The translations under genes and the position numbers were made by a program. Under the pieces are notes generated by a model that was not told the DNA's origin, ran no database searches, and saw only the letters and a program-made list of their open reading frames with translations. Shown in pieces: positions 32,315 to 60,982 of a stretch of DNA of 64,000 bases (its first letter is position 1; every line of letters begins with the position of its first letter). Origin of the DNA: Mycobacteriales bacterium (GTDB lineage: Bacteria; Actinomycetota; Actinomycetes; Mycobacteriales; CADCTP01); contig DASYKU010000044.1 in the NCBI GenBank assembly GCA_035995165.1, forward strand, positions 1 through 64,000, written 5' to 3'.

Positions 32315-32673
32315 GTCGAGATGTCCGCGTACGGCAGGGAGAAGTGGGCCAGCCGCTGCGCGTACTCCAGCTGGAAGCCCAGCGGCTCCTCGTGGTCCCG
32401 CTCGAACATCGCGATGAACAGGGTCAGCGTGAGGAACGGGTGCGCGCCCATCTCGAACAGGGCCGGGTAGTCGTGTGTGGACAGTGCCGCCCGCTCCGCG
32501 TCGGTGAAGGCCTGGTACGTGCTGGCCTCCCGCGCCGCGCAGTTCAGCAGCTCGTTGGCCTTCTCGGCCTCCCACCACGTCACCGTGCCGGCGGGGTCCT
32601 CCCGGTACCGCTCCACGAGCGAGGGGTCCCGGTCGATCGTGAACAGGAACTTGTTCAGCAGATACTTGCTCAT
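32311..32673 (-). CDS. LigA-like extradiol dioxygenase small (alpha) subunit
   Basis: 120-residue helical protein with the LigA pattern: YLLNKFLF at the N terminus, FTDAERAALSTHDYPALFEM and GAHPFLTLT. It forms the lid over the active site of the LigB-type subunit encoded just upstream. It overlaps genes or bridging ORFs on both sides. Separate LigA and LigB genes are the protocatechuate 4,5-dioxygenase arrangement. Confidence 0.82.
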   Translation of the reverse strand: MSKYLLNKFLFTIDRDPSLVERYREDPAGTVTWWEAEKANELLNCAAREASTYQAFTDAERAALSTHDYPALFEMGAHPFLTLTLFIAMFERDHEEPLGFQLEYAQRLAHFSLPYADIST

Positions 32674-32765
32674 CTCCCGCTCCTCGATCGGACCCGGCCT
32701 CGTCCCTCGGCCGGCTCGGCTCTCGTCGCTCCCCGTTCGCGCTGCGAGCGCTCGCGCTCACTCAT
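32670..32765 (-). CDS. Bridging ORF of 31 codons, dispersed repeat family B, copy 1
   Basis: The ATG overlaps the LigB stop (GAATGA) and the TGA overlaps the LigA ATG. It encodes an Arg/Glu-rich peptide starting MSERERSQRERGATRAEP. It aligns without gaps to the first 31 codons of 60839-60982: 23 identical residues, about 85% DNA identity. LigA and LigB are normally adjacent, so this looks like an element inserted at their junction without breaking coupling. Synonymous and non-synonymous changes number 5 and 8, so peptide-level selection is not shown. Confidence 0.45.
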   Translation of the reverse strand: MSERERSQRERGATRAEPAEGRGRVRSRSGR

Positions 32766-33625
32766 TCCGGCGCTCCGTTCGGGTACCAGGTGAAGTACGC
32801 CTCCATCGTGTGGAAGAGGTCGTACGTGTCGACGTAGTCGGCCTTCGCGTTCTCGCCCGCGACGCCCATCATCAGCATGAAGTCCATGAACCCGTGGGTC
32901 GCGTTGCCCGGCGCGTGCAGGCTGTCCAGCGTCACCTCGGACAGGCAGCCGTCCAGGTCGCCGTCGGCGATCCACTGGACCGCCTTGGCGTCGAACTCCG
33001 GGTCGGGCCCGTGCGGCCCGAACTGGCGCGGGCCGCCCAGCTCCAGCGAGAGGTGCCCGGTGCCGATGATCGCGACCTTCTTCTCGCTCGGCCAGGACTC
33101 GACCATCTCCCGGATCGCCTTGCCCAGCTGGACGAAGCGCTTCGGCTGCGGCAGCGGCGGCGCGAAGATGTTCGTGTAGACCGGCACGATCGGCAGGTCG
33201 TTCTGCGGTCGCAGCGTGATGATCGGGCAGGTGACGCTGTGGTCGATCCGCAGCTCGTTGGAGAACGCGAGGTCGAAGCCGGCGTCCAGGCCGGTGCGCA
33301 GCAGGTGACCGGACAGGTCCCTGTCCCCGGCCATGCGCATCTGCGGGAGCCCGAACTCGCGCTCCTCGTTGTACCAGTTGGCGTCGTACTGGTCGGCATG
33401 GCCGACGAGGAACTGCGGCATGTTGTCCAGCCAGAGCTGGTGGAAGTGGTCGGAGCCGACCATCACCAGCACGTCCGGGGCGGCCTTGGTCAGCGTCTCC
33501 CGGAACGCCTCGACCTTGCGCACCCACTCCGTAGCGAACGGCGGCGCCTCCTCGGGCGGCGCGGTGCTCGCCTTGTAGTAGAAGGGATGGTGGGTCGACG
33601 CGATCACCGCCGTGATCTCAGCCAT
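32762..33625 (-). CDS. LigB-type class III extradiol ring-cleavage dioxygenase (beta subunit)
   Basis: Fe(II)-dependent aromatic ring opening. 287 residues, LigB fold. The metal and catalytic histidines are in STHHPFYY near residue 12, GSDHFHQLW near residue 60 and GTGHLSLEL near residue 190. With the LigA-like protein it would cleave a catecholic or methoxy-catecholic carboxylate. The start overlaps the stop of the citryl-CoA-lyase-like gene by 8 nt. The substrate cannot be read from sequence. Confidence 0.88.
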   Translation of the reverse strand: MAEITAVIASTHHPFYYKASTAPPEEAPPFATEWVRKVEAFRETLTKAAPDVLVMVGSDHFHQLWLDNMPQFLVGHADQYDANWYNEEREFGLPQMRMAGDRDLSGHLLRTGLDAGFDLAFSNELRIDHSVTCPIITLRPQNDLPIVPVYTNIFAPPLPQPKRFVQLGKAIREMVESWPSEKKVAIIGTGHLSLELGGPRQFGPHGPDPEFDAKAVQWIADGDLDGCLSEVTLDSLHAPGNATHGFMDFMLMMGVAGENAKADYVDTYDLFHTMEAYFTWYPNGAPE

Positions 33626-34421
33626 CGGACTCTCCCTCGGTCACGGGCACCTCGACCGCGTTCCGGTCGATCTCCAGGTACATGTCCATCGCCAGCGGGT
33701 GACGCCGTTCCTCCGCGAGCTGGCCGAGCAGGCCGGCCGCGCGGGCCAGCAGCGCGACCCCGCGCAGCAGCTCGACCGGCAGGTCGAGGTCGGCCAGCGC
33801 GGCCCCGCAGACGCCGGCCCCGTTCAGCGGCAGCGTGCGCCCCAGCACCTGCGGGTGGACCCGGCCGATCGCCTCGTACAGCCGCAGGTGCGGGCCGCGC
33901 AGGCCCTCCTCCTCGGCGATCGCGAGCAGTCGCGGGGTCCGCGGGTCCTGGACCTTGTGCACCGGGTGGCCGAGACCGGGGACGAACTTCTTCTCGGCCC
34001 GGGCCTTCTGCACCAGCGGCAGCGCCAGCGCGTCCCAGCCGGCGTCGTCGGCCGGCAGCGCACCGTCCACTTCGGACAACGCCCGGTGCAGGTAGCCGCC
34101 GGCGTCCTCGGTCACGCCGAGGAAGCGGGAGCCGCCGCCGAGCAGACCGGCCGCCAGCGCGCCCTGCAGCGAGTCCGGCGCGGAGAGGTAGGTGACGCGG
34201 GCGGCGATCGCGGTCGGGGTGAAGCCGTGGTCGGCCAGCGCGACGAGCACCGACTCGAACACCCGGGCCTCGCCCGGGGTCGGTCGCCGGGCCGCCAGCA
34301 GCCAGAACGCCAGCTCGCCGAAGCCGATCTTCCCCATCAGGTCGTCGGCCAGGTCATGTCCCAGCAGCCGGATGTGGTCGGCATCGGAGGTGCCCAACGA
34401 CGAAGGATAGGAACGACTCAC
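33618..34421 (-). CDS. Citrate-synthase-fold citryl-CoA-lyase-like protein
   Basis: 267 residues, much shorter than citrate synthase (about 370-430) but keeping the active-site strand: PGLGHPVHKVQDPRT holds the conserved His, and an Asp-containing region follows. Proteins of this size are annotated as citryl-CoA lyase. With the CoA-transferase just upstream, it would cleave a CoA-activated hydroxy acid to acetyl-CoA and an oxo acid (inference). GTG at 34421 overlaps the stop of a bridging ORF (GTGA). Confidence 0.75.
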   Translation of the reverse strand: MSRSYPSSLGTSDADHIRLLGHDLADDLMGKIGFGELAFWLLAARRPTPGEARVFESVLVALADHGFTPTAIAARVTYLSAPDSLQGALAAGLLGGGSRFLGVTEDAGGYLHRALSEVDGALPADDAGWDALALPLVQKARAEKKFVPGLGHPVHKVQDPRTPRLLAIAEEEGLRGPHLRLYEAIGRVHPQVLGRTLPLNGAGVCGAALADLDLPVELLRGVALLARAAGLLGQLAEERRHPLAMDMYLEIDRNAVEVPVTEGESDG

Positions 34422-34552
34422 TCTGTCCCCCTTGTTCGCTCCCGGTCGGGCGCTGGTGGCGACGTCTTCCCTACGCGCCTGCGTGGTGGGCGCGGGCGCG
34501 GGGCCGGGCGGCGCTCCGGTCCAGACGTCGCCGCGCCCCACCTCCCGCTCAC
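34418..34552 (-). CDS. Bridging ORF of 44 codons, dispersed repeat family A, copy 2
   Basis: GTG at 34552 overlaps the CoA-transferase stop (GTGA); the TGA at 34420-34418 overlaps the GTG of the next gene. The peptide is Arg/Pro-rich, begins MSGRWGAATSGPER and is homologous to 27438-27560. It carries translation across what is otherwise an untranslated insertion in a fully overlapping operon. Confidence 0.4.
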   Translation of the reverse strand: MSGRWGAATSGPERRPAPRPRPPRRRVGKTSPPAPDRERTRGTE

Positions 34553-34555
34553 GGC
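34435..34555. repeat. Dispersed repeat family A, copy 2 (about 120 bp)
   Basis: Second copy of the element at 27444-27563, lying in the junction between the CoA-transferase and citryl-CoA-lyase-like genes. The ends of the similarity coincide with the gene borders. Confidence 0.75.
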
Positions 34556-35769
34556 TTGTCCTCCAGCCAGGCGCGGATCTCGGCGCCGTGCTCGTCCAGC
34601 CCCGGCGGCGGCAGCCGGTAGCCGGCCGGCGTCTCGGAGAACGTGATCGGGTTGCGGATCGAGGGCACCCCGCCGACCTCGACCACCGGTTCGAGACCGA
34701 GCTCCTCGGCGAACGCGACGCCCTGGTTGACCGTGTTGATCGGCCCGCACGGGACACCGGCGCCGATGATCTCCCGGAACCACTCGTCCTTGCCCCTGGT
34801 CATGAGCCGCTCGACCAGCAGCGGGCGCAGCTCGTCCCGGTTGGCCGTGCGGTCCTTGTTCAGCACGAACCGCGGGTCGTCGGCCAGCTCGGGCAGGCCG
34901 AGGACCTCGCAGAGCTTGCGGAACTGCCGGTCGTTGCCGGCGGTGATGATGAGCTCGCCGTCGGCCGTCGGCATCAGGTCGTACGGGAAGAGGCTGGGGT
35001 GGGCGTTGCCCATCCGGGTCGGCGTCGCGCCGGCCGAGACGACGGAGCCGGAGTGGTTGACCAGTCCGGACAGGGCCGAGGACAGCAGGTTGACCTCGAC
35101 GTGCTGGCCGCGGCCGGTCGACTGTCGCGAGTGGAGCGCGGCCAGCACGCCGATCGTCGCGTGCAGCCCGGCCATCACGTCGAAGACCGAGATCCCGGCC
35201 CGGTACGGCGGCCCGTCGGGGGAGCCGGTCAGGCTCATCAGCCCGGCGATCGCCTGCACGATGAGGTCGTAGCCGGGCAGCGCCGCCCCGCCGCCGGTGC
35301 CGAAGCCGGTGATCGAGGCGTAGATGACGCCGGGGTTGGTGGCGGCGACCGCGTCGTAGTCCAGGCCGAACCGGGCCAGCCCGCCGACCCGGAAGTTCTC
35401 CATCACGATGTCGGCCCGCGAGGCCAGCTCCCGGGCCAGCGCGGCGTCGTGCTCGTCCTTGAGGTCGAGCGCGATCGAGCGCTTGTTCCGGTTGATCGAG
35501 AGGTAGTACGTCGCCTCGCCGTCGCGTACGGGCGGCATCCAGGTGCGGGTGTCGTCCCCGCCCGGGCTCTCCACCTTGACCACCTCGGCCCCGAGGTCGG
35601 CCAGCAGCATGGACGAATACGGCCCGGCCAGGATCCGGGAGAAGTCGGCCACCAGCAGGCCGCTCAGCGGGCCCGGCGCGGCCTGTCCGTCGGTCGCTCC
35701 GCTCGGCTCCACAGCACCTCCTTGTCCGGTCGACGGACGGTCGTCCGGAAATCCGAGTCTTGCACTCAT
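34549..35769 (-). CDS. CaiB/BaiF family (type III) CoA-transferase
   Basis: 406 residues. Family landmarks: VADFSRILAGPYSSMLLADL, GAEVVKVESPGGDDTR, NKRSIALDLK, ADIVMENFRVG, and the catalytic Asp in LPGYDLIVQAIAGL. It moves CoA between carboxylic acids. ATG at 35769 overlaps the IclR stop (ATGA). With the lyase-like protein downstream it forms an activate-and-cleave pair. Confidence 0.9.
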   Translation of the reverse strand: MSARLGFPDDRPSTGQGGAVEPSGATDGQAAPGPLSGLLVADFSRILAGPYSSMLLADLGAEVVKVESPGGDDTRTWMPPVRDGEATYYLSINRNKRSIALDLKDEHDAALARELASRADIVMENFRVGGLARFGLDYDAVAATNPGVIYASITGFGTGGGAALPGYDLIVQAIAGLMSLTGSPDGPPYRAGISVFDVMAGLHATIGVLAALHSRQSTGRGQHVEVNLLSSALSGLVNHSGSVVSAGATPTRMGNAHPSLFPYDLMPTADGELIITAGNDRQFRKLCEVLGLPELADDPRFVLNKDRTANRDELRPLLVERLMTRGKDEWFREIIGAGVPCGPINTVNQGVAFAEELGLEPVVEVGGVPSIRNPITFSETPAGYRLPPPGLDEHGAEIRAWLEDKP

Positions 35770-36569
35770 CCCGCGGGCAGCGCCACCGGCACGGACTGGT
35801 AGCGGGCGAAGTCGGCGCTCACCTCGCCGGCCGTCTGCAGCAGCATCGGCAAGTAGTCGCCGGTGAGGGTGCCGACGGGCGTTTCGGCCGCGTGCACGGT
35901 GACGTTCATCGCCGCGATCACCCGGCCGGCGCCGTCCCGCAGCGGCGCGGCCACCGACCGGATCCCGGGCGCCAGCGCCTCGTCGGTCAGCGTCCAGCCC
36001 TTGGCCCGGACGTCCCGCAGCAGCCCGTCCAGCTCGGCCCGGCCGGGTACGTGCCGGGCGGTCACGCCGGAGCGGGACGGCTCGGCCAGCACCGCGTCGA
36101 GCTCGGCCGGCGGCAGCCCGGCCAGCAGCACCTTGCCCAGCGAGGTCGACGGGGCCGGGAACCGGGTGCCGATGTCGACCCGCAGCGCGATGATCTTCGG
36201 CACCGCCACCCGGGCCACGTAGACGATGTCGGAGCCGTCCAGCTGGGCGATGGAGCTGGACTCGCCGGTCCGTCCGACCAGCGCCTCCAGGTGCGGCCGG
36301 GCGACGTCCCACAGCCCCAGCGACTGCACGTACGCCATGCCGAGCTCGAGCACCCGCGGGGTCAGCCGGAAGCCGCCGGGGCCGCCGCGCGCGTACCCCA
36401 GGGCCTCGAGGGTGAGCAGGATCCGGCGCGCGGTCGGCCGGGCCAGCCCGGACGCGGTGGCCACCTCGCTGAGCGTCAGCACCGGCCGGTGCGGCCCGAA
36501 CGCCTTGATCACGTCGAGGCCGCGCGCGATCGCCTCGACGAAGTCGGGGCTGTCGGTACGGCGGGCCAC
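35766..36569 (-). CDS. IclR family transcriptional regulator (PcaR-like)
   Basis: 267 residues. An N-terminal winged helix (LTLSEVATASGLARPTARRI) is followed by the IclR effector domain (GTRFPAPSTSLGKVLLAGLP, ALAPGIRSVAAPLRD, AMNVTVHA). The AIARGLDVIKAFG start is typical of PcaR/PobR-type activators of aromatic catabolism. It is the first gene of the coupled operon and divergent from the amidohydrolase, so it probably controls both from the shared intergenic region. Confidence 0.9.
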   Translation of the reverse strand: MARRTDSPDFVEAIARGLDVIKAFGPHRPVLTLSEVATASGLARPTARRILLTLEALGYARGGPGGFRLTPRVLELGMAYVQSLGLWDVARPHLEALVGRTGESSSIAQLDGSDIVYVARVAVPKIIALRVDIGTRFPAPSTSLGKVLLAGLPPAELDAVLAEPSRSGVTARHVPGRAELDGLLRDVRAKGWTLTDEALAPGIRSVAAPLRDGAGRVIAAMNVTVHAAETPVGTLTGDYLPMLLQTAGEVSADFARYQSVPVALPAG

Positions 36570-36588
36570 GCCGGCAGCCTAGCGCCTG

Positions 36589-36605
36589 TGTCCGCTGTGC
36601 GGACA
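36589..36605. promoter_or_regulatory. Palindrome between IclR gene and amidohydrolase (candidate IclR operator)
   Basis: TGTCCGC (36589-36595) and GCGGACA (36599-36605) are perfect 7-bp arms around TGT, 20-36 bp upstream of the IclR start and in the shared divergent region. It also resembles the dispersed GTCC...GGAC palindrome, so it may be an instance of that instead. Confidence 0.5.
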
Positions 36606-36729
36606 GGGTCAACCGGGGTAATCCGGCAGAAACGGGCAACGGTCCTTGACGGCCTCCCGGACGCGGTACAAGGTGCTCCCATTCCTCGAGGTGTCCGTCA
36701 CGCGGACGTCCGTACGTGAAGGAGGACCT

Positions 36730-38172
36730 GTGGACGAGCTCGCGTCCGGCCGGCCGGTGGTGTTCCGCGGCGGCACCGTGCTGCCGATGGACGACCAGCG
36801 CAGCGTCCTGACCGGCGCCGACGTGCTGGTCGTCGGCGAGCGGATCGAGGCGGTCGGCCCGGACCTGCCGGTGCCGGACGGCACGCTGGAGATCGACGCG
36901 ACCGGCGGCATCGTCATGCCCGGCATGATCGACACCCACCGGCACATGTGGCAGACCGCGATGCGCGGCTACGGCGCCGACTGGACCCTCACGCAGTACT
37001 TCGTCTGGTACTACCTGGAGCACGGCAAGACCTTCCGCCCGCAGGACATCCACGCCGGCAACCTGCTGGCCGGGATCGAGTCCCTGGACGCGGGCGTGAC
37101 GACCACGGTCGACTGGTCGCACGGGTTGCAGACCACCGAGCACGCCGACGCCGCGGTGGACGCGCTGCAGGCGGTGCCGGGCCGGTTCGTCCTGGCGTAC
37201 GGCAACATCCAGGCCGGGCCGTGGGAATGGTCGGCCGCGCCGGAGTTCCGCGACTTCGTCAGCCGCCGGATCACCCCGGGCGACGACATGCTCGGCTTCC
37301 AGATGGCCTTCGACGTGACCGGCGACCCGTCCTTCCCGGAGAAGGCCGCGTTCGAGGTCGCCCGCGACCTCGGCGTCCCGGTCACCACCCACGCCGGCGT
37401 CTGGGGCGCGACGAACGACGACGGCATCCGGCTCATGTACGACAACGGCTTCGCCGTCCCCGGCACCGTCTACGTGCACGCGGCCACGCTCTCGGAGGAC
37501 TCGTACCAGCGGATCGCGGCCAGCGGCGGCACCGTCTCGGTCTCCACCGAGAGCGAGCAGAGTGCCGGCCAGGGCTACCCGCCCACCTGGAACCTCCGCT
37601 CGTACGACATCCCGGTGTCGCTGTCGATGGACACCAGCGTCTGGTGGAGCGGCGACCTGTTCTCGGCCATGCGGACCACGCTCGGCGCGGACCGGTCCCG
37701 CGAGCACCACGAGGCCCACGCCAAGGGCGACACCGTGACCAACTGCCACCTGCGGGCGGACCAGGTCGTGGAATGGGCGACCCGCGGCGGGGCCAAGGCG
37801 CTCGGCCTGGACGGCGTGGTCGGTCAGCTGAAGCCCGGGATGAAGGCCGACGTCGTGCTGATCAAGAACGACCGGTCGCCGGCGATGTTCCCGCTGCTCA
37901 ACCCGTACGGGCACGTGGCGTTCCAGGCCCAGCGCGGGGACGTGCACACGGTCCTGGTCAACGGGCGGATCGTGAAGCACGAGCACGAGCTGGTCGGCAT
38001 CGACCTCAAGGCCGCGCAGAACGAGGTCCGGTCCACTGTGGACCACCTGCGCTCGGCGCTCGGCGAGGACGTCTGGGCCAAGGGGATGAACCCCGAGGTG
38101 CCGGAGACCGCGATGCTCGACAACCCGTACCAGTACACGGATTACTCGTCCGGCACCACGCACGGACACTGA
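36730..38172 (+). CDS. Amidohydrolase superfamily protein (chlorohydrolase/deaminase type)
   Basis: 480 residues. Metal ligands appear in order: HRH in DTHRHMWQTAMRG near residue 75, His in VTTHAGVWGA, His in YVHAATL and Asp in SMDTSVWW. AVLGLDGVVG-type C-terminal segments (ALGLDGVVGQLKPGMKADVV) are typical of subtype III deaminases and of AtzA/TrzN-like hydrolases. It would remove an amino or other leaving group from a ring substrate before ring opening by the divergent LigAB operon (inference). GTG at 36730 follows GAAGGAGG (36718-36725). Confidence 0.85.
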   Translation: MDELASGRPVVFRGGTVLPMDDQRSVLTGADVLVVGERIEAVGPDLPVPDGTLEIDATGGIVMPGMIDTHRHMWQTAMRGYGADWTLTQYFVWYYLEHGKTFRPQDIHAGNLLAGIESLDAGVTTTVDWSHGLQTTEHADAAVDALQAVPGRFVLAYGNIQAGPWEWSAAPEFRDFVSRRITPGDDMLGFQMAFDVTGDPSFPEKAAFEVARDLGVPVTTHAGVWGATNDDGIRLMYDNGFAVPGTVYVHAATLSEDSYQRIAASGGTVSVSTESEQSAGQGYPPTWNLRSYDIPVSLSMDTSVWWSGDLFSAMRTTLGADRSREHHEAHAKGDTVTNCHLRADQVVEWATRGGAKALGLDGVVGQLKPGMKADVVLIKNDRSPAMFPLLNPYGHVAFQAQRGDVHTVLVNGRIVKHEHELVGIDLKAAQNEVRSTVDHLRSALGEDVWAKGMNPEVPETAMLDNPYQYTDYSSGTTHGH

Positions 38173-38176
38173 GACG

Positions 38177-38216
38177 CGGCGTCGCGGCGGGTGCCCCCGT
38201 GCCCGTCGCGACGCCG
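38177..38216 (+). terminator. Hairpin terminator after the amidohydrolase gene
   Basis: A 15-bp stem with one G-U pair: CGGCGTCGCGGCGGG (38177-38191) against CCCGTCGCGACGCCG (38202-38216), 10-nt loop, 4 nt after the stop codon. Confidence 0.8.
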
Positions 38217-38265
38217 TCCCAGGAACGACGCCGTCCCAGGAACGACGCCGTCCCAGGAACGACGC
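38209..38265. repeat. 17-bp tandem repeat between amidohydrolase and SDR genes
   Basis: Three full units of CGACGCCGTCCCAGGAA (38209, 38226, 38243) plus a partial fourth. The first overlaps the 3' arm of the terminator, so the array grew from the terminator stem. No coding role is seen. Confidence 0.85.
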
Positions 38266-38334
38266 GTTGCCTCCGGACCGGGACCGGATGCGCGCGGGCG
38301 ACGGGGCCGTCATCCCGACCTGCTGGTCGGGTGT

Positions 38335-39123
38335 CTAGGACTCCGGCTCCGCCATGTTCCGGTGCATGCCGGCCTTGAGCTTGTCCGGCAGCACCTTGGC
38401 CGCGGTGCCCTGGGCGCGCGACTTCAGCGATCCCGCCAGCACCTTGTCCTCGGCGTCCATGAGGGCGTCGAAGCCCTGCCGGGCGACCTGGGCCGGGTCG
38501 TCCTTGGACCCCTGGCCGACCGGGGTGTCGTCCATCCCGGCCCGGTGGAAGAAGTTGGTGTCGGTGGGGCCGGGCATCAGCGACGTGATCACCACGGCGG
38601 TGTCCTCGAGCTCGTTCTGCAGCGCCTGGGTCCAGGACTGCAGGAACGACTTGGTCGCGTTGTAGACCGACTGGAACGAGCCGGGCATGGTCGAGGCGAC
38701 CGAGGACGTCACCAGGATCGAGCCGGCGTCGCGGGCGATCAGGTCCGGCAGCAGCCGCTTGGCCAGGTGCACGGTGCCGGTGACGTTGAGGTCGATCAGC
38801 CTGATCTCGTCGGCCAGCTCGGTGTCGGCGAACGCGCCGCCGAGACCGACCCCGGCGTTCAGCGCGACCGCGGACAGCGGCCGGCCGGCCACGGTGACGG
38901 CGGCGTAGAGCTTCTCCACGCCGTCGTACGTGGCCAGGTCGGCGGTCACCGCGGACACCTGGGCGCCGGTCGAGCGCAGCTGCGCCGCGGCCGCCTCCAG
39001 GCCCGGGTCCTCCGCGCAGATCAACAGGTCGTAGTCGTGCTGGGCGAACTGCTTGGCCAGCTCGAGGCCGATGCCGCTGGAGGCACCGGTCACGAGCGCG
39101 AGGGCCTTGTCGGTCTCCGTCAT
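38335..39123 (-). CDS. Short-chain dehydrogenase/reductase
   Basis: 262 residues with the classical SDR set: TGASSGIG cofactor motif near residue 13, NAG in ALNAGVG, catalytic Ser in LVTSSVAS and Tyr-Lys in SVYNATKSF. NAD(P) preference and substrate are not evident. A C-terminal segment after residue 200 (AEDKVLAGSLKSRAQG) is typical of uncharacterised SDRs that lack an assigned pathway. It lies 29 nt downstream of the GH1 gene in the same direction. Confidence 0.9.
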   Translation of the reverse strand: MTETDKALALVTGASSGIGLELAKQFAQHDYDLLICAEDPGLEAAAAQLRSTGAQVSAVTADLATYDGVEKLYAAVTVAGRPLSAVALNAGVGLGGAFADTELADEIRLIDLNVTGTVHLAKRLLPDLIARDAGSILVTSSVASTMPGSFQSVYNATKSFLQSWTQALQNELEDTAVVITSLMPGPTDTNFFHRAGMDDTPVGQGSKDDPAQVARQGFDALMDAEDKVLAGSLKSRAQGTAAKVLPDKLKAGMHRNMAEPES

Positions 39124-39152
39124 GGGCGCGGGACTACCCGGATCGGCGGCCC

Positions 39153-40505
<1,353 letters not shown>

Positions 40506-40590
40506 GACTCTCCTCTGTGGACGGTCACTCGCTCCCCGCCCCCTGCCGGTGGGGGTACGTCGTCAAGGAGTGAATGGCACGCCCGGGGAG

Positions 40591-40610
40591 TTAATTTGAT
40601 GCTTGAATTA
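40591..40610. promoter_or_regulatory. AT-rich motif in the GH1/ROK control region (candidate ROK operator)
   Basis: TTAATTTGATGCTTGAATTA lies in the AT-rich part of the divergent region. Its reverse complement matches a site at 51205-51224 upstream of the GH16-GH3 genes in 8 of the first 9 and 5 of the last 6 positions. It has TAATT/AATTA arms, as expected for a dimeric repressor. Confidence 0.5.
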
Positions 40611-40691
40611 TCACTAGCATTTAACTGGTGAGGCAGGGTGGCGTCAAGACACCGGACGCGGTGACGCGGCGCGCCGAGGAGGGGGACGGAC

Positions 40692-41921: not shown

Positions 41922-41923
41922 GC

Positions 41924-41952
41924 GCGCCCGGCCCCGCTGAGGGGCCGGGCGC
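41924..41952. terminator. Bidirectional hairpin between ROK and DUF1996 genes
   Basis: GCGCCCGGCCCC (41924-41935) and GGGGCCGGGCGC (41941-41952) pair perfectly around a 5-nt loop between two convergent genes. Confidence 0.8.
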
Positions 41953-41958
41953 GAACCC

Positions 41959-43326: not shown

Positions 43327-43388
43327 GGTGGGTCCTCAACCTCGGAAGGTGGGCGCCCGCCGGAACGCCGTTGTGGGGTGGGTGGTGC

Positions 43389-43420: not shown

Positions 43421-43430
43421 ACGTCACGAT

Positions 43431-46037: not shown

Positions 46038-46075
46038 GGCTCTCCTTGGGTGGGAGGGACACCGACAGGATTGGG

Positions 46076-46108: not shown

Positions 46109-46139
46109 GGTCACTGTGGACGGTCACTGTGGACGGTGG

Positions 46140-51139: not shown

Positions 51140-51204
51140 GCGACTCCGCCTTCCGGATGCGAAAGGTCTGCCGCCGCCGCCGTACGGCCGCAATTCTCAG
51201 TGCT

Positions 51205-51224
51205 TATTTCAAGGCATGATTTAA
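51205..51224. promoter_or_regulatory. Candidate ROK operator upstream of the GH16-GH3 operon
   Basis: TATTTCAAGGCATGATTTAA lies 66-85 bp upstream of the GH16 start in an AT-rich patch. It matches the motif at 40591-40610 in reverse complement at both ends, with a variable 5-bp centre. Confidence 0.5.
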
Positions 51225-51376
51225 CGCAGGCTTCACGGCGGTCGTCAAGACGTCGACAGGCGTCGAGTGACCCGTTCCGGCTAGTCCGAATGTCCGACTC
51301 GTACGGCCTTACGGGGGAACGCTCCTGGGTCAGGCGGCGTCAGGGCAGAATGGACGGCCGGGTTTCAGGAGGCGCG

Positions 51377-53572: not shown

Positions 53573-53759
53573 CGGGACTTCGAGCCAGGGGAGGTGGCCG
53601 ACGCCGGGCAGGGTGACCCGGGCGACGTCGGGAGGGGCGGCCGCCAGGAAGTCGTACGCCAGGGCGAGCTGCGCGCCCCAGCGGTGCTCCGGTCCCGGAG
53701 ACCGGCGTCCACAGCTCCCGCCCGTCATCCGCCAGCACAGCCCGTACCCTAGGAGCCAT
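53525..53759 (-). pseudogene. Alpha/beta-hydrolase scar: N-terminal and C-terminal ends only
   Basis: The minus-strand ATG at 53759 reads MAPRVRAVLADDGRELWTPV then SGTG, the usual start of a proline-iminopeptidase-type hydrolase. In another frame, ending at 53525, the sequence reads AYDFLAAAPPDVARVTLPGV, then GHLPWLEVPSASPAPLRGFL, the usual end with the catalytic His in GHLPW. The 200 or so residues between, including the nucleophile elbow, are gone. This is an internal deletion with frame change. Its 3' end overlaps the HelR-like gene. Confidence 0.6.
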
Positions 53760-53776
53760 GGACGAAGTGGGCAGCG

Positions 53777-54688
53777 GTGCTTGAGCCGAGCGGGCTGTAC
53801 GAGCTGGCCCCCGAGCTGCCCGAACTGGACCGCCCGGTCCTCGTCGTGGCGATGACCGGGTTCGTGGACGCGGCCGGGGCGACCAAGCTCGCCGCCGAGC
53901 ACCTGCGCGAGACCGGCGACCCGGTCGACGTGGCCAGCTTCGACGTCGACCAGCTCTACGACTACCGCGCCCGGCGGCCTCCGATGATGTTCGTCGAGGA
54001 CCACTGGGAGGGCTACGAGACCCCGGAGATCCGGGTCCAGGCGCTCACCGACACCACCGGCACCCGGTTCCTCATGCTCGACGGCCCGGAGCCGGACGTG
54101 CAGTGGGAGCGGTTCGTGGCCGCGGTCGAGCTGTTGTGCCAGCGCCTGGACGTCAGCGCCAGCGTCGGCTTCAACTCGATCCCGATGGCGGTGCCGCACA
54201 CCCGCCCGCTCGGGGTGACCGCGCACGCCAGCCGGCGCGAGCTGATCAACGACTACCAGCCCTGGCTGCAGCGGGTGCAGGTGCCGGGCAGCGCCGTGCA
54301 CCTCCTGGAATACCGCCTGGGCGAGGCCGGCCGGGACTCGATGGGCTTCTCCGTGCACGTGCCGCACTACCTCGCCCAGACCGACTATCCGGCGGCCGCG
54401 CAGACGATGCTGGAGGCGGTGTCGAAGGCGACCGGGCTGTCCCTGGTCGGCGACTCGCTCAAGGCCGCCGCCGACGCGGTCCGGGCCGACGTGGACGGGC
54501 AGGTCGAGCGGTCGGAGGAGGTGGCGAGCGTGGTCCGGGCACTGGAGGAGCAGTACGACGCGTACGTGTCGGGGCGCGGGGAGAACCTGCTCGCCTCCGA
54601 CGCCGGCCCGCTGCCCACCGCGGACGAGCTCGGGGCCGAACTGGAGCGGTTCCTGGCCGAGCAGACGGATCGTCCGGACCAGCAGTAG
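53777..54688 (+). CDS. PAC2 family (proteasome assembly chaperone-like) protein
   Basis: 303 residues with the PAC2 pattern: LVVAMTGFVDAAGATKLAAEHL, FDVDQLYDYRARRPPM, FLMLDGPEPDVQWERFV, GFNSIPMAVPHTRP, and a C-terminal helical region. Actinomycetes that own proteasomes encode such proteins, but their role is not settled. GTG at 53777 is used. It is followed 7 nt later by the BrkB-type gene, so the two are probably co-transcribed. Confidence 0.88.
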   Translation: MLEPSGLYELAPELPELDRPVLVVAMTGFVDAAGATKLAAEHLRETGDPVDVASFDVDQLYDYRARRPPMMFVEDHWEGYETPEIRVQALTDTTGTRFLMLDGPEPDVQWERFVAAVELLCQRLDVSASVGFNSIPMAVPHTRPLGVTAHASRRELINDYQPWLQRVQVPGSAVHLLEYRLGEAGRDSMGFSVHVPHYLAQTDYPAAAQTMLEAVSKATGLSLVGDSLKAAADAVRADVDGQVERSEEVASVVRALEEQYDAYVSGRGENLLASDAGPLPTADELGAELERFLAEQTDRPDQQ

Positions 54689-54695
54689 CCATCCG

Positions 54696-55709
54696 GTGGA
54701 CCTGTCCGCGCGGGTCGACCGCTTCCAGCAGCGCCACCCGGCCGTCGGGTACCCGCTCGCCGTCATCTACAAGTTCTTCGACGACCAGGGCAACTACCTG
54801 ACCGCGATGATCACGTACTACGCGTTCCTCTCGCTGTTCCCGCTGCTGCTCCTGCTGCTGTCGATCCTCGGCTTCGCGCTGCACAACGACCAGGCCCTGC
54901 AGGACCGGGTCGTGGACTCGGCGGTCAGCCGGCTGCCGGTGATCGGCACCCAGATCGCGGACAACGTCCAGTCGCTGCGCGGCAACACGCTGGCCGTCGT
55001 CATCGGCGCGCTCGGCGGCCTGTACGGCAGCCTCGGCGTCGTGCAGGCGGCGCAGAACGCGTTCAACAAGGTCTGGGCGGTGCCGCGCAACTCCCGGCCG
55101 AACCCGGTCATGGCCCGGGTCCGCAGCCTGTCGATGCTGGTCGTGCTCGGCATCGGGCTGGTCGTGTCCACCGGCCTGTCGGCGCTGTCGGCAGTGGCCG
55201 GCCGGGTCGGCGACTCCGACCTCGACAGCGGGCTGCGTGCGCTGCTCGGGCTGGCCGCGGTGGTGGTCAACGTGGCCCTGCTGGTGTTCGCGTTCCGGCT
55301 GCTCACCGCCGCCTCGGCCGGCACCCGCCGGGTGCTGCCGGGCGCGATCTTCGCCGCGGTGATCTGGCAGGTGCTGCAGATCTTCGGCACCTACTACTTC
55401 GGGCACACGCTGCGCGGCAGCACCGCGACGTACGGGCTGTTCGGCATCGTGCTGGGGTTGCTGGTCTGGCTCTACCTGTCCGCGTTCGCGGTCGTGCTCG
55501 GCGCCGAGGTGAACGCGGTCCGGGACGGGCGGCTCTGGCCGCGCAGCCTGCTCACGCCGTTCACCGACGACGTGCGGCTGACCCACGGCGACCGGAAGGC
55601 GTACGCGTCGTACGCGGAGACCGAGCGGCACAAGGGGTTCGAGACGGTCGAGGTGGGCTTCGACCAGGACCCGCCCGAGGACGATCCGGGAAGGCGACGC
55701 CCGCACTGA
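54696..55709 (+). CDS. YihY/BrkB family membrane protein
   Basis: 337 residues with about six membrane helices. Signature segments: LTAMITYYAFLSLFPLLLLL, GLYGSLGVVQAAQNAFNKVW and YGLFGIVLGLLVWLYLSAF, followed by GAEVNAVRDGR. The family is often misnamed ribonuclease BN; an envelope role is more likely. The C-terminal 50 residues are cytoplasmic and acidic. The GTG start at 54696 lies 7 nt after the PAC2 stop. Confidence 0.9.
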   Translation: MDLSARVDRFQQRHPAVGYPLAVIYKFFDDQGNYLTAMITYYAFLSLFPLLLLLLSILGFALHNDQALQDRVVDSAVSRLPVIGTQIADNVQSLRGNTLAVVIGALGGLYGSLGVVQAAQNAFNKVWAVPRNSRPNPVMARVRSLSMLVVLGIGLVVSTGLSALSAVAGRVGDSDLDSGLRALLGLAAVVVNVALLVFAFRLLTAASAGTRRVLPGAIFAAVIWQVLQIFGTYYFGHTLRGSTATYGLFGIVLGLLVWLYLSAFAVVLGAEVNAVRDGRLWPRSLLTPFTDDVRLTHGDRKAYASYAETERHKGFETVEVGFDQDPPEDDPGRRRPH

Positions 55710-55898
55710 GCTTCCCCCGAGGCTCGCGGGCCGGCGTGGCGGGGCCACGTCGGAGGGCGTCCGGGTCGTCCTCCCGGGCCCCCCGTTTCCCTCAGCAGTC
55801 CCACTTCCGGCGAGCCGTGCCGAACCGCGGCGGGCGTCGCTCCCGGCCGCAAGACTGCCTGGTCAACGAGGATCCCGCTTCGGTCCCACTGTGCCTAC

Positions 55899-58751
55899 TT
55901 AACCGGTTTGGCTCCCGGACTTAATGCGGGCCCGGGCCAGCGCGACCAGACCGGCGCGGTTGGGCACGCCGGTCTTCGCGACCAGGTTCGCCACGTGCGT
56001 CTCGATGGTGCGCGGGGAGAGCACCAGCCGCTGCGCGATCGCGGTGTTCGTCAGCCCGTCGCCCATCAGCGCGAGCACGTCGACCTCGCGGCTGGTCACC
56101 CCGACCGCGCGCAGCGCCGCCGGCACCGGGGTGTCGCCCCGCCCCGGCCGCGGCACCGGGGCGCCGGCCTTGCGCAGCACCTCGCGGCAGCGGCTGGCCA
56201 GCCGGCTCTCGCCCCGCCCGGCGAAGACCGGCAGGGCCTCCCGGGCCCAGCCGATCGGATCGCCCCAGCCGTCGGTGAGCGCGGCGTCGGCGACCAGCAG
56301 CCGGATCCGGTGCTGCCACCAGGGCAGCCGGGCCATCGCCCGGTCGGCCGCGGCCAGCTCGGCGTCGGCCTCCCGGCGGCGGCCCCGGCGGCCGCAGTCG
56401 ACCGCCGCCGCGTACCCCAGCAGCGCGGTGTTCTCCCAGTTCACGGTCGAGGGCTGGGCCTCGGCCCGGGCCGCGTCGCCGTCCTTGCCGGCCAGCGTCC
56501 GGACCAGCGCCCACAGGCCGCGGGTCGGGGTCGGGGTGACCGCGAGGCTGCGGCGCAGGTAGTCGGCCGCGGTGTCGAGCACCTTCAGCAGCTGCTCCTG
56601 GTCGTCCGCGACCAGGGCGGCATGCGTCCGGACCTGGCCCCAGACGGCCGCGTTGACGTCCAGGTCGTCCGGGGCCAGCGTGAGCGACTGGGCCGAGCAC
56701 TTCTCGGCCTCCTCGGCGTTGCCGAGCTCCTCGTACGCGATCGCCTGGAAGCAGACCGCGGTGGCCCAGAGCCGGTCCGTCCGCAACCGCCGGGCCACGT
56801 CCGCGCACCGCTGCGCGTACGTCAGCGCGCGGGTCGGCTCCCGGTGCAGCAGGCCGGCCGCGATCTGCAGGTCCAGGGTCGCGGCCAGGCCGACCAGGCC
56901 GGCGTCCTCGGCCAGCCCGCGGGCCCGCTCCAGCCGGTCGGTGGAGCCGTTCTCGAGCAGGTCGACTGTGCCGAGCTCGTGCAGCGCGGAGACCCGGTCC
57001 AGCGGCAGGTCCTGCTCCCGGGCCAGCGCCTCGGCCGCGGAGAACGCGTCCCGGGCGGCGGCCGCGTCGTCCAGCCGGGCCACCCGGCCGATCACCAGCA
57101 GGGCCTGGCAGGCGACCGACCAGAGCTTGCGGTCGCGGGCGGTGCCGAGGCCGGCCTGGGCCATCTGCCGGGCCCGGACCGGCTCACCCCGGGCGTACGC
57201 CAGCCGGGCCGCGAGCACGCCGACCAGCGGGTCGCCGTCCGGCCCCGCGTCCGGGATCGCGGACAGGTACGCCGCGGCCACGTCCCAGCGCTCGGCGTCC
57301 GCGGCCACCTGGGCCAGCACCAGCCGGACCCCGGTGTCGCCCTCCCGGAGCAGCCGCTCGCCCAGCGCCAGCGCCCGCTCGGCGTCGCCCTTGTTGGCCA
57401 GCACGGACAGCAGCTCGCGGTCGGCCGTGGCCTTGACCCCGGGGGTGGCGGCCAGCTTCGCGGCCCGGGTCAGCAGCAGGTCGGCCGAGTGCAGCGCGCC
57501 CCGGCGGGCCGCGACCCGGCCGGCGGCCACGGACAGCTCGGCCGCCCGCTCGTCCTCACCCGCCGCCGCCCGCAGACCCGCCGCCAGGTCGTACGCCTCC
57601 GGGTCGCGGCGTTCGACGATCTCGGCCGCGGCGTGCGCCAGCGAGCGGCGCTCCGGCGGCAGCAGGTCGTCGCGGACCGCGTCCCCGGTCAGCGCGTGCC
57701 GGAAGTGGAACGTGTCGCCGTCGCCCGCCTCGACCAGCCCGGACTGGACCGCGGCCCGCAGCCCGGCCAGCACCTGGACCTCGGACAGCCCGGTCACCTC
57801 GGGCAGCAGTGACCAGTCGAACCGGCGGCCGAGCACCGCGGCGGCCCGGACGACCGACTGCGCGGCCGGGTCCAGGTGCTCGACCCGGCGCTGCACGGTG
57901 GCCGCGAACGTCCGCGGCACGGCCGGGGTCAGCGGCCCGACCAGCCGGCCGGCCGGGCTGAGCGCGCCGACCGAGCCGAGCCCGGTGAGCAGCTCCTCGA
58001 CCAGCAGCGGCAGGCCGTCGGCGTTCTCCCGGACGAACGCGACGACCTCCTCCGGCGGCCGGCCGGACAGGCAGGCCTCGACCACCTCGCGGACGTCGCC
58101 GGCATCGAGGCGCCCCAGCGGCAGCTCGGTGGCCTGGGTCGCGGCGACCAGCTCCAGCAGCGACTGCGGCAGCCCGCGTTCCTCCCGGGCGGTGGCGACC
58201 AGCAGCAGCGGGGCCGACTCGGCCGCGTGGGTCAGGTAGGTCAGCACGGTCAGCGTGTCCGGGTCGACCCAGTGCAGGTCCTCCAGCACCAGCAGGGTGC
58301 CGTGGCCGGAGCGCCCGGCGGCCAGCGCGGCCAGCAGCCGCAGAATCGCCTCGCCGAGAACGGCGCCACCGCGCGGGTCGGTCCGCCCGCCGGCGACGGC
58401 GGCATCCGGCAGCACCGCCGCCAGCACCGGGAGATAGGGCCGCAGCGCGTCGTCGTCGGGCAGCCCGCGCTCCCGCAGGGCCGCGCCCAGCGCCTCCACC
58501 AGCGGCCGGTACGGCTCCCCGTTCGGCACCGCGCGCCCGGTCAGCACGGTCACCCCGGCCTGCTCGGCCAGCCCGGCGGCCTCCCGGACCAGCCGGGACT
58601 TGCCCACCCCGGGCTCGCCCGAGACCACCACCAGCCCGCCGGTGCCCTCCGTACGGAGGCGGTCCACCCGGGCGCGCAGCGCGCTCAGCTCGGCGCTGCG
58701 GCCGACCAGCCGGCCCGCGGCGGCCTGCCAGGGCAGCACCGTCCGGCTCAT
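55899..58751 (-). CDS. Large ATP-binding LuxR-type (LAL) transcriptional regulator
   Basis: 950 residues: AAA-type ATPase at the N terminus (GRLVGRSAEL, Walker A SGEPGVGKSRL near residue 45, Walker B LLVLEDLHW), a long alpha-solenoid of TPR-like repeats, and a C-terminal LuxR HTH (VTSREVDVLALMGDGLTNTA, LSPRTIETHVANLVAKTGV). LAL proteins act as pathway activators that respond to a ligand in the solenoid. ATG at 58751 directly precedes the conserved N terminus; an upstream in-frame start would add an unrelated tail. It lies 97 bp downstream of the esterase gene. Confidence 0.9.
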   Translation of the reverse strand: MSRTVLPWQAAAGRLVGRSAELSALRARVDRLRTEGTGGLVVVSGEPGVGKSRLVREAAGLAEQAGVTVLTGRAVPNGEPYRPLVEALGAALRERGLPDDDALRPYLPVLAAVLPDAAVAGGRTDPRGGAVLGEAILRLLAALAAGRSGHGTLLVLEDLHWVDPDTLTVLTYLTHAAESAPLLLVATAREERGLPQSLLELVAATQATELPLGRLDAGDVREVVEACLSGRPPEEVVAFVRENADGLPLLVEELLTGLGSVGALSPAGRLVGPLTPAVPRTFAATVQRRVEHLDPAAQSVVRAAAVLGRRFDWSLLPEVTGLSEVQVLAGLRAAVQSGLVEAGDGDTFHFRHALTGDAVRDDLLPPERRSLAHAAAEIVERRDPEAYDLAAGLRAAAGEDERAAELSVAAGRVAARRGALHSADLLLTRAAKLAATPGVKATADRELLSVLANKGDAERALALGERLLREGDTGVRLVLAQVAADAERWDVAAAYLSAIPDAGPDGDPLVGVLAARLAYARGEPVRARQMAQAGLGTARDRKLWSVACQALLVIGRVARLDDAAAARDAFSAAEALAREQDLPLDRVSALHELGTVDLLENGSTDRLERARGLAEDAGLVGLAATLDLQIAAGLLHREPTRALTYAQRCADVARRLRTDRLWATAVCFQAIAYEELGNAEEAEKCSAQSLTLAPDDLDVNAAVWGQVRTHAALVADDQEQLLKVLDTAADYLRRSLAVTPTPTRGLWALVRTLAGKDGDAARAEAQPSTVNWENTALLGYAAAVDCGRRGRRREADAELAAADRAMARLPWWQHRIRLLVADAALTDGWGDPIGWAREALPVFAGRGESRLASRCREVLRKAGAPVPRPGRGDTPVPAALRAVGVTSREVDVLALMGDGLTNTAIAQRLVLSPRTIETHVANLVAKTGVPNRAGLVALARARIKSGSQTG

Positions 58752-58848
58752 GAGGGCGGTCGGGTCACGGGCGAGCTCACTGCAGACCTCCCGATGCGCC
58801 CCCAGGGAGGGCCACCCTAACGTCCGGGAACGTGCTCGGCACCCTCCG

Positions 58849-60003
58849 TCACTCGTACACATACTTGCGCGGTCCCGGAAAGACGTAGGACAAGCCGTCG
58901 CGGAGCCGGTCGCGCCAGTTCTCCCAGGAGTGACCGTCGCGGGACTCGACGTACCGGACCCGCATGCCGGTGTCGGTGAAGACCGGGACCATCGAGCGGT
59001 TGGGCACGATCAGCGGCTCGTAGACGCCGCAGCTGACGAAGACCTTGTCCGCCACCGCCCGCGGCCGGGCCCGGTAGCGGTTGGTGAAGCGGACCACCGG
59101 GTCGAACGCCGGCCCGCCGCCGTGGTCCGAGCCGATGTCGGTGAACACGAACGAGCCCGACTGCAGCAGCAGCGACCCGTACGTGTCCGGGTGCCGGTAG
59201 GCCGTCGAGAGCGCCGCGACCGCGCCGAAGGAGGCGCCCAGCAGGCAGCGCCCGGCCGGCTGCGCGTTCAGCGGGAACCGCCGCTCCAGGTACGGCAGCA
59301 GCTCGTCGGTGACGAACCGCGCGTGCGCGGTGGAGTCCGCGTACTCGACCAGCCGGTCGCCGGGGTGCAGGAACGCGCCCACCAGCTCGGCCACCTCGTT
59401 GCGGTGCACCAGGTTGTCCAGCACGGTCTTCGCCGCCGCGTACTGCAGGTAGTCCGGGCCGTCGTGCACCACCAGCAGCGGGTACGAGGCGGTCCGCCGG
59501 AACCGGGCCGGCAGGTAGAGCGTGACCCGGGCGTCGCGGTGCAGCGCCCGGGACGGCACGGTCAGCTCCAGCAGCTCGCCGGGCCGGGTCTCCGGGTCGT
59601 GCTCGGCCCACTCCGGGCCCTCGTAGCCGGTGCCGAAGACGACGCTGGAACCGCCGACCGGCGAGTGCGACCGGTGCGGGTTCAGCGGGTCGTTGATCCG
59701 TTCGTAGTGCTCGCCGCGGCGCAGCTCGAGCTGGTACTCGACCCGCGACCGCTCCGGCAGCTCCATCACCACGGACCAGAGGTCCGTCCCGCGCAGCCGG
59801 CGCAGCGGCAGCCGGTCCGGCAGCCCGAGCACCCGGTGCGTCACCCAGACCTCGTCGGCCTCACCGCGGAACAGGAACGTGCATCGCAGGCCCTCGACGA
59901 TCGGCACCTGCTGGCGGGCCAGGAACCGCTCGACCGTGTCCCCGTCCAGCGGCCCGCGCTCCTTGAGGCGGTTGATCGCCAGCCGCCGGGTCGAGCCGGT
60001 CAC
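58849..60003 (-). CDS. Enterochelin-esterase-like (D/Fes family) alpha/beta hydrolase
   Basis: 384 residues without a signal peptide. An N-terminal beta domain (about 1-150, FLFRGEADEVWVTHRVLGLP) precedes the esterase fold: nucleophile Ser in LLGASFGAVAAL, LLQSGSF, and His in SRDGHSWENWRD. Fes-type enzymes cleave trilactone siderophores, but sequence alone does not show that substrate. GTG at 60003 overlaps the stop of the upstream gene (GTGA). It is the last gene of the ATP-grasp operon. Confidence 0.8.
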   Translation of the reverse strand: MTGSTRRLAINRLKERGPLDGDTVERFLARQQVPIVEGLRCTFLFRGEADEVWVTHRVLGLPDRLPLRRLRGTDLWSVVMELPERSRVEYQLELRRGEHYERINDPLNPHRSHSPVGGSSVVFGTGYEGPEWAEHDPETRPGELLELTVPSRALHRDARVTLYLPARFRRTASYPLLVVHDGPDYLQYAAAKTVLDNLVHRNEVAELVGAFLHPGDRLVEYADSTAHARFVTDELLPYLERRFPLNAQPAGRCLLGASFGAVAALSTAYRHPDTYGSLLLQSGSFVFTDIGSDHGGGPAFDPVVRFTNRYRARPRAVADKVFVSCGVYEPLIVPNRSMVPVFTDTGMRVRYVESRDGHSWENWRDRLRDGLSYVFPGPRKYVYE

Positions 60004-60842
60004 GCGACCCGGCCGTCGGCGCCGACGACCCGCCCCCGGTCCAGGCCCCGGACCCCGTCGTCCAGCACCACGCAGCGGGCCGGCGCGAACCGCCGGGCCA
60101 GCGCGCCCAGCCGGGCCGGGTCATCCATCGGCAGCCGGCGGCGCGCGTGCGGCAGCAGCACGGTGTCGTTCACGACACCGAGCCCGGGCGCGTACGCCTC
60201 GGCCCGGCCGTCGGTGAACAGCACCACCCGATCGGTCAGCGCCATCGCCCCGGCCGACCAGGCCACCACGTCGGCCGGCGGCGTCACCGCGAACAGGCCC
60301 AGCACGTGCAGCAGCACGCCGACGTGCCCGCCCGTGACCACCAGCAGGCTGGTGTCCTCCAGCACCGCGGCGACCTGGGCCCGCTGCTGGGCCACCGCGT
60401 CCCGCTCACCCGGGCGCCAGGCCGCCTCGAAGTCGGCCCGGACCTCGGTCACCCGGGCCAGGTGCCGGGCGTCCAGCAGCCGCAGCGCCTCCTCGGAGTC
60501 GGCCAGCGCGGCGGCCCGGGTGCGGGGCCGGGTGCTGCTGCGCCGGATCGCGACCGCGGCCTGCTCGGCGTTGCCCACCTGCAGCGCGTAGAGGTCCTGC
60601 AGCTCCTCCAGCACGGCCCGGTGGTTCAGCTCGGCGTCGGCCAGCTCGGGGTCGGCGTCCAGCACGGTCAGCCAGCGGGTGTGCAGCCGGAGGTTGACCG
60701 TGCTCCCCCCGAGCAGGCCGTCCAGCTCGGCGTCGTCGGCCTCGCGCTCGCGCCAGCCCGCGGTGACCGTGGCGGCGACGGTGCCCGGCGGCACCGGCTG
60801 GACCGTGGGCCGCCGCTGCGGCCCCAGGACCGTGACGGTCAT
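60000..60842 (-). CDS. Uncharacterised protein with peptidase S51/cyanophycinase-like domain
   Basis: 280 residues. The N-terminal half is helical (ELADAELNHRAVLEELQDLY). The C-terminal half has a class-I glutaminase/S51-like core: LLVVTGGHVGVLLHVLGLF, then VVAWSAGAMALTDRVVL, where the Ser in WSAGA sits at the nucleophile-elbow position of S51 peptidases. An ending such as RFAPARCVVLDDGVRGLDRG matches uncharacterised actinomycete proteins. Start and stop both overlap neighbours. With an ATP-grasp ligase next door it may act on a peptide-like bond (inference). Confidence 0.6.
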   Translation of the reverse strand: MTVTVLGPQRRPTVQPVPPGTVAATVTAGWREREADDAELDGLLGGSTVNLRLHTRWLTVLDADPELADAELNHRAVLEELQDLYALQVGNAEQAAVAIRRSSTRPRTRAAALADSEEALRLLDARHLARVTEVRADFEAAWRPGERDAVAQQRAQVAAVLEDTSLLVVTGGHVGVLLHVLGLFAVTPPADVVAWSAGAMALTDRVVLFTDGRAEAYAPGLGVVNDTVLLPHARRRLPMDDPARLGALARRFAPARCVVLDDGVRGLDRGRVVGADGRVA

Positions 60843-60982
60843 CCCCCGCTCATCCCCCGCTCGCCCTGCGGGCGCTCGGGCTCGCTCATCCCCCCGTTCC
60901 TCGGCCGGACCCGGCCTCGTTCCTCGGCCGGCACAGCCCTCGTCGCTCCCCGCTCGCCCTGCGGGCGCTCGGGCTCGCTCAT
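60839..60982 (-). CDS. Bridging ORF of 47 codons, dispersed repeat family B, copy 2
   Basis: The ATG overlaps the stop of the ATP-grasp gene (GGATGA); the TGA overlaps the ATG of the S51-like gene. The first 31 codons match 32670-32765 without gaps (about 85% DNA identity). A partial second unit (MSEPERPQGERG) follows in frame, so the element duplicated by 12 codons while keeping the frame open. The peptide is Arg/Glu/Pro-rich. Confidence 0.45.
   Translation of the reverse strand: MSEPERPQGERGATRAVPAEERGRVRPRNGGMSEPERPQGERGMSGG

Follow-up and report, generated by a model that had tools for sequence, protein, structure and literature searches.

The stretch of DNA analysed here, hereafter the window, comprises 64,000 nt of a Mycobacteriales bacterium (assembly GCA_035995165.1, contig DASYKU010000044.1, positions 1 to 64,000). 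Two unrelated gene junctions in it, one between a LigB-type and a LigA-like gene and the other between an ATP-grasp gene and a gene for a 280-aa protein, are each bridged by a short open reading frame (ORF) which starts on the upstream stop codon and ends on the downstream start codon. We consider it very probable that the two bridges are copies of a non-autonomous mobile repeat, which inserts at the RTGA (ATGA or GTGA) of start codons and carries its own ORF and ribosome-binding site as a selected stop-start relay. The copies and their gene neighbors are arranged as follows:

32670-32765, minus strand: element copy 1, a 96-nt bridging ORF at the LigB/LigA junction, encoding MSERERSQRERGATRAEPAEGRGRVRSRSGR followed by a stop
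32762-32765, minus strand: 5′ ATGA of copy 1, the element start overlapping the LigB stop
32735-32761, minus strand: left-end hairpin of copy 1 (element positions 5-12 with 24-31), with compensatory changes among 17 family copies
32680-32685, minus strand: GAGGAG of copy 1, Shine-Dalgarno-like, ahead of the LigA start and conserved in the family alignment
32670-32673, minus strand: 3′ ATGA of copy 1, the LigA start overlapping the element stop
60839-60982, minus strand: element copy 2, a 144-nt bridging ORF made of a full unit, a truncated second unit and a remnant
60886-60982, minus strand: first, full unit of copy 2, through the second ATGA inclusive
60855-60889, minus strand: truncated second unit of copy 2, whose 35 nt repeat the start of the first unit exactly
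32762-33625, minus strand: LigB-type dioxygenase gene upstream of copy 1 (Pfam PF02900)
32311-32673, minus strand: LigA-like gene downstream of copy 1, with a homologue near LigB in 80 of 80 records
60979-62196, minus strand: ATP-grasp gene upstream of copy 2 (by Pfam)
60000-60842, minus strand: gene for a 280-aa protein downstream of copy 2, S51-like according to the first-pass annotation

Neither the LigA-like protein nor the 280-aa protein had a Pfam match at 1e-5. The first-pass annotation had joined the two junctions into one family on the basis of 31 shared codons with 23 identical residues and about 85% DNA identity, and the resemblance is confirmed: the copies are 86.7% identical over 90 bp without gaps and share 23 of 31 residues (residues counted by eye), and both ends of each copy, when read again, overlap the upstream stop and the downstream ATG. 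Copy 2, which had been described as the same kind of bridging ORF, does form an ORF of 144 nt but is not a simple unit; further ATGAs lie at 60886-60889 and 60850-60853, and its first unit reads through the second ATG in frame to yield the single long ORF. It is a decayed array, the first unit of which is out of stop-start register with the second.

The host genome (G000; 5.37 Mb in 162 contigs) yielded 16 matches to the 96-bp query, including the query itself, with the best other match at E 7.6e-31, and the combined use of this query, a 99-nt consensus and a sequence profile brought the total to 19 copies at 18 junctions, well beyond chance expectation and in keeping with the dispersed family originally proposed. 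The profile alone recovered 18 of the 19 at E < 0.002, the nineteenth, C31, having an E-value of 0.25 by profile and 3.9e-8 by the 99-nt consensus; two matches (C62 and C109) were read and dropped as chance, and weaker profile matches lie outside the count. The upstream stop overlaps the 5′ RTGA of the element in 18 of the 19 copies, the exception being C5, where it lies 4 nt before, and 15 have an element ORF that closes on the downstream start (in C132, the contig ends 12 codons later). Three copies (C94, C5 and C98c) are fused in frame to the downstream gene, while C31 has suffered an internal deletion and its ORF ends 10 nt within the next gene. The 15 bridging copies, which are 72, 75, 78, 93, 96, 99 or 144 nt long and thus all in frame, each combine a start codon, a ribosome-binding site and an open ORF. 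Both genome-wide regularities on which the first-pass annotation had staked its reading, the location at stop-start junctions and the lengths in multiples of three, are therefore present.

A Pfam family was assigned to 34 of the 36 proteins flanking the copies: LigB; ATP-grasp; Alpha-E and transglutaminase; two BPD_transp_2; CCG and LUD; transhydrogenase subunits; YjgF and NUDIX; RimK and luciferase-like; two BPD_transp_1; arginyl-tRNA-synthetase domains and PLP decarboxylase; DnaJ and RNA methyltransferase; two ABC-3; AP endonuclease and GT87; transpeptidase and FtsW; GntR and Fer2; PALP and TrpA; RNase HII and DUF2469; and GatC and amidase. Three copies now form the N-terminus of the downstream protein, namely a Fer2-type subunit (L016:1500), a NUDIX protein (L008:1561) and a GT87 protein (L026:1500). 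The trpB-trpA junction with its element is present twice, in both cases at a contig end (L006:34-131 on C132, and L025 on C20); the shared part of TrpB is 95% identical, and either the assembly contains a second strain or the junction has been duplicated.

Empty counterparts of the occupied junctions, as the first-pass annotation would lead one to expect, were found both in the same genus and elsewhere. In G001, the one other genome of the host genus that was compared, the ATP-grasp orthologue (84%) ends in CACGCGGGATGACCGTCACC, with one ATGA between the flanks known from the window and no element, and the orthologue (81%) of the 280-aa gene starts at that ATGA, overlapping ATP-grasp by 4 nt. 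A single ATGA likewise marks the trpB-trpA junction of G001, the trpA start being placed there by extrapolating the alignment. Two other relatives have longer gaps between the ATP-grasp gene and the 280-aa gene, with no element. The family yielded no convincing copy in G001 by query, consensus and profile searches, with two loci read, and among 298 sampled genomes of the order, there were weak matches beyond the genus in two, where the three loci read contained no RTGA-ended element. LigB and LigA, described at the outset as normally direct neighbors, indeed share a 4-nt overlap in 75 of the 80 named LigB records. The other five have gaps of 236 nt (L070), 1379 nt (L074), 40 nt (L078) and 70 nt (L096), or an 8-nt overlap (L110), and three of them (L070, L078 and L096) hold different inserts of like design.

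These inserts lead to sister families, which share a common design with the window family and are compared with it by design rather than by homology. Those of L078 (Thermocatellispora, 48 nt) and L096 (Actinophytocola gossypii, 78 nt) are in-frame ORFs running from RTGA to RTGA, and that of L070, an Actinophytocola metagenome-assembled genome, consists of three chained 84-nt ORFs with an 80-bp period; two of the three belong to large Actinophytocola families. Searches with the L070 unit gave 36 matches in the genome of origin, a single weak one in another genome and nothing in a further 12, and the 11 readable loci among 13 taken comprise seven ending on a gene start, two in-frame fusions, one contig end and one that could not be assigned. 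The L096 unit matches five of six Actinophytocola genomes (15, 6, 0, 14, 42 and 74 matches). We took 60 Actinophytocola sites from the listed matches in four genomes, a subset of those existing, and scored 59, leaving aside L244, which has no DTGA near its expected end; 55 of the 59 bridge, including L230, whose own frame of 81 nt starts at ATGC and ends on GTGA. Among the four exceptions (L236, L239, L245 and L257), L239 and L245, both from G303 (Actinophytocola algeriensis), contain in-frame tandem repeats of a 30-bp piece of the element, fused to an ORF as its N-terminus, and L257 ends in TAATG, retaining the stop-start arrangement.

The design extends widely across the order. A sister motif, TGAGCG(N)AGCNNGCG(N)AGCGAA, had no matches in G000 and was found in 55 of the 298 order genomes, the reversed control pattern giving one match, in G049. 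We read 70 motif loci (30 from the motif search and 40 fetched), making up 71 rows and 70 distinct sites, as L313 and L335 are the same. A bridge was found at 52 of the 70 sites; ten rows are in-frame fusions (eight) or contig ends (two), seven end otherwise, three of these bridging onto short ORFs (L290, L307 and L322, by eye NuoK-, ACP- and KH-like), and L318 is a motif locus without RTGA. Of the 71 rows, 45 have an upstream stop overlapping the element and 11 have one nearby; in the other 15 none was found. Head-to-tail arrays in relatives share the stop-start tetranucleotide between units, as in the seven 77-bp units of G260 and the 80-bp arrays of G298. Periods of 74, 77, 89 and 95 bp, equal to 2 modulo 3, form chained stop-starts, and those of 63, 75 and 78 bp, equal to 0 modulo 3, are read through; no period equal to 1 modulo 3 was seen among the motif-site arrays read.

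The insertion target looks like the start codon of the downstream gene, because some copies in relatives sit at starts without overlapping an upstream stop: at 11 of the 59 Actinophytocola sites, the RTGA extends 3 to 26 nt past the end of the upstream stop, and no upstream ORF was evident at L218 or L240. The stop overlap at most sites would follow from the fact that the targeted starts often overlap a stop. Thus, the ATGA junction named as target in the first-pass annotation fits most copies and is better described as a downstream start codon. Bridging and fused copies lie at gene starts and are all oriented as the downstream gene, although 517 RTGA sites lie in just the inner 60 kb of the window, and 26 of these are flanked on both sides by ORFs of at least 100 codons.

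Comparison of copies suggests that it is the frame, and not the peptide, that has been preserved. The length variants retain the frame with one rescued exception, both in the window family (72-144 nt) and in single units of relatives, which span 60-111 nt. The exception, L238, is net one base short, and a new internal ATGA rebuilds the relay in the right frame, while L225 has two compensating 1-nt indels and keeps its place with a scrambled peptide (both read by eye). Amino-acid changes look neutral: the nonsynonymous fraction is 0.765 versus a null of 0.762 (n = 20) and 0.766 versus 0.753 (n = 30) in the Actinophytocola units, and 0.712 versus 0.719 (n = 5) in the 99-nt copies of the window family, a family in which departures from consensus within the first 15 codons after the start number 18, 16 and 7 at codon positions 1, 2 and 3, respectively. 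For the second half of the element, the codon-position test was disregarded, being confounded by two body types. If the substitutions had fallen at random, 9.4 of 50 copies would be expected to have a premature stop, and none does. An automatic walk found a relay in frame 0 in 121 of 149 rows (14 of 19 in G000, 53 of 59 in Actinophytocola and 54 of 71 at motif sites), in frame +2 in 23 (1, 13 and 9, respectively), and at 264 of 3029 other RTGA sites; frame +1 (136 of 149 rows) is no control, its first codon being TGA.

In the mechanism that we favor, the repeat would insert exactly at an RTGA, most often where a start codon overlaps the stop of the preceding gene, and would leave RTGA at both ends, perhaps by duplicating the tetranucleotide. 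The open frame would begin at the first RTG and close at the last TGA, with a GAGGAG-type ribosome-binding site ahead of the last RTG, and a ribosome finishing the upstream gene would restart on the element, read 23 to 47 codons, and restart on the downstream gene. The peptide would be dispensable and the unbroken stop-start relay maintained by selection, so that insertion would do little harm. An inserted element keeping stop-start reinitiation at work across itself had been suggested from the two window copies, and it is supported by the non-scattered copies, the in-frame lengths and the empty orthologous junctions; we infer from the sequences that the elements are translated and may presently be mobile.

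Several observations weigh against this mechanism. Bridging ORFs can arise by chance in GC-rich DNA, as at 8.7% of the other RTGA sites. A family of fixed length inherits its frame, leaving only the length variants and frameshifted copies, counted by eye, as tests of selection, and irregular copies other than L238 include L225, L230, L236, L244 and L257. The 50 copies of the premature-stop comparison had been selected for an open ORF (78 or 81 nt), with the broken L238 outside the set. GAGGAG, GAGGGG or a similar sequence precedes the 3′ RTG, and the energy of its duplex with the ribosomal RNA end is better than the shuffled mean at 50 of 54 Actinophytocola sites, but in only 10 of the 15 G000 copies. 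Finally, a search for a candidate mobilizing enzyme, a Y1 (HUH) transposase (PF01797), gave no match in G000 and a match in only one of 15 other genomes that carry elements.

A different possibility is that the selected feature is a nucleic-acid structure at the stop/start, such as a post-stop hairpin promoting re-initiation; stable structures just after stop codons have been described in a 2020 paper (PMC7518266). The left-end hairpin of the window family stands directly at the stop/start codon and shows compensatory changes: both sides have changed in four of its eight pairs, in six such cells, its covariation score exceeds that of 500 of 500 shuffles, and 77.9% of cells are paired in the 17 copies. 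It is mismatched, mostly G.A, at two of the eight pairs in 14 of the 17 copies, three being Watson-Crick at both. A right-end hairpin, C-GA-GC-GNA-GC-GA-G, was read by eye as a candidate. Selected RNA structure across the whole element was rejected, as the three consensus units fold no better than shuffles (z -0.33, 0.65 and -0.03). In the sister families, for which a shorter hairpin taking in the RTGA itself can be drawn, the mismatches at the start base, seven A:C and one G:T, are the reverse of what RNA pairing tolerates, although the numbers are small. Selection for structure would, moreover, leave the conservation of frame unexplained, and we hold it to be an unlikely basis for the family.

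The first-pass annotation had itself offered an alternative in which the repeat simply inserts at RTGA with a 4-bp duplication, translation is not selected, and the frame is a by-product of fixed length. RTGA does occur at both ends, and the first bases of the 5′ and 3′ RTGA agree beyond chance (p = 0.02 in Actinophytocola, 0.03 in G000 and 7e-4 combined), in support of the duplication, but the 3′ base is linked to no column at p < 0.01 within the two Actinophytocola single-unit sets. The 5′ base, in turn, appears to pair with an internal base in the sister families, where the first base of the start codon covaries with the base at position 22 or, in longer units, 24. Among 138 distinct places, of which tandem units and orthologous places are not independent, we counted A:T 48, G:C 79, A:C 7, G:T 1 and other combinations 3 times (p = 9e-28). 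In the Actinophytocola 81-nt set, no column but base 22/24 shows a link with the start base at p < 0.01 (p = 5e-5), and the 78-nt set gives the same result, although its p-value of 0.008, with 77 columns compared, is too weak alone; the order-wide 81-nt set cannot by itself demonstrate pairing, since many columns link to the start base there, bodies differing between genera. Both start-base states occur side by side in seven genomes, which disfavors simple descent of two subfamilies. No link was seen in seven G298 places or in the window family. Insertion alone would hardly account for length variants that stay in frame, for the compensated (L225) and rescued (L238) frameshifts, for the depletion of premature stops, or for the confinement of bridging and fused copies to gene starts in co-orientation with the downstream gene amid so many RTGA sites, and we regard it as quite improbable as a complete explanation. 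The two readings are compatible, and RTGA-aimed insertion may have been followed by selection keeping the frame.

A functional small-protein family copied into several operons is scarcely credible and was rejected: the 15 bridging G000 copies do have an open ORF, start codon and ribosome-binding site, but amino-acid change is neutral, L225 stays in place with its peptide scrambled, the same LigB-LigA junction holds unrelated peptides in other genera, and the three consensus peptides have no Pfam match up to E 0.1.

The closest known kind of element is the mycobacterial interspersed repetitive unit (MIRU), whose mode of working, matched here by published description, looks alike. According to PMC12548453, which cites Supply et al. 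1997, MIRUs are mobile repeats that lie at start codons and whose internal ORF is coupled at -4 nt to the gene that follows; their lengths are given as 77 and 53 bp (PMC4213456). As to their range, PMC12548453 refers to many mycobacteria, differing from PMC4213456, which, in its account of the senX3-regX3 repeats, assigns them only to M. leprae and the M. tuberculosis complex. The elements studied here share with MIRUs the insertion at start codons, the coupled internal ORF, the tandem arrays and the empty sites, and 77 and 53 bp both equal 2 modulo 3, as do the 74-, 77-, 80-, 89- and 95-bp stop-start arrays. They differ in comprising several families with differing bodies, in Actinophytocola and many genera of the window's order, and in the evidence for frame without peptide, the hairpin and, in sister families, the start-base pairing. 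Our search of the open library literature found no paper on such elements outside mycobacteria. What is new is the spread beyond the published mycobacterial cases, the frame-not-peptide signature, the left-end hairpin, and the pairing of the start base, the latter in sister families only.

Repetitive extragenic palindromic (REP) sequences and miniature elements derived from IS200/IS605 are short, with an end hairpin, a tetranucleotide beside the left end and internal base pairing with that tetranucleotide. The present elements resemble them in being short and in having an imperfect end hairpin and a left tetranucleotide, with an internal base that covaries with the first base of the tetranucleotide in sister families only, and differ in carrying a coupled ORF and a ribosome-binding site. 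Mobilization by an IS200-type or REP-associated tyrosine transposase was rejected on the distribution of PF01797 across G000 and the 15 other genomes, the single occurrence of which, in G107, has an internal stop.

A few further junctions deserve mention. Actinomadura geliboluensis (L074) has about 1.4 kb between LigB and LigA, and in Dactylosporangium sucinum (L068) and Planosporangium mesophilum (L060), LigB has a repeat-like C-terminal extension directly before the ATGA. Candidate relays at trpB-trpA were read by eye in L261 (G013) and L288 (G018), as two chained mini-ORFs and one 72-nt bridging ORF.

As a tentative and rather doubtful extension of these findings, one might imagine an actinobacterial class of mobile elements that finds start codons by base pairing, in which an internal C or T, at position 22 or, in longer units, 24, would match the first base of GTG or ATG, so that the element would insert where a ribosome starts and bring a portable relay with it; coupled junctions would then be safe harbors, and MIRUs one branch of the class. 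The insertions are, in effect, natural experiments on translational coupling, and they suggest that a coupled junction needs an unbroken stop-start chain rather than any one sequence or peptide. Such insertions can account for improbable short ORFs and for unusual N-terminal extensions (MSER..., MSELASE...) in actinobacterial genomes, and through them the question of how mobile elements can aim at start codons becomes testable.

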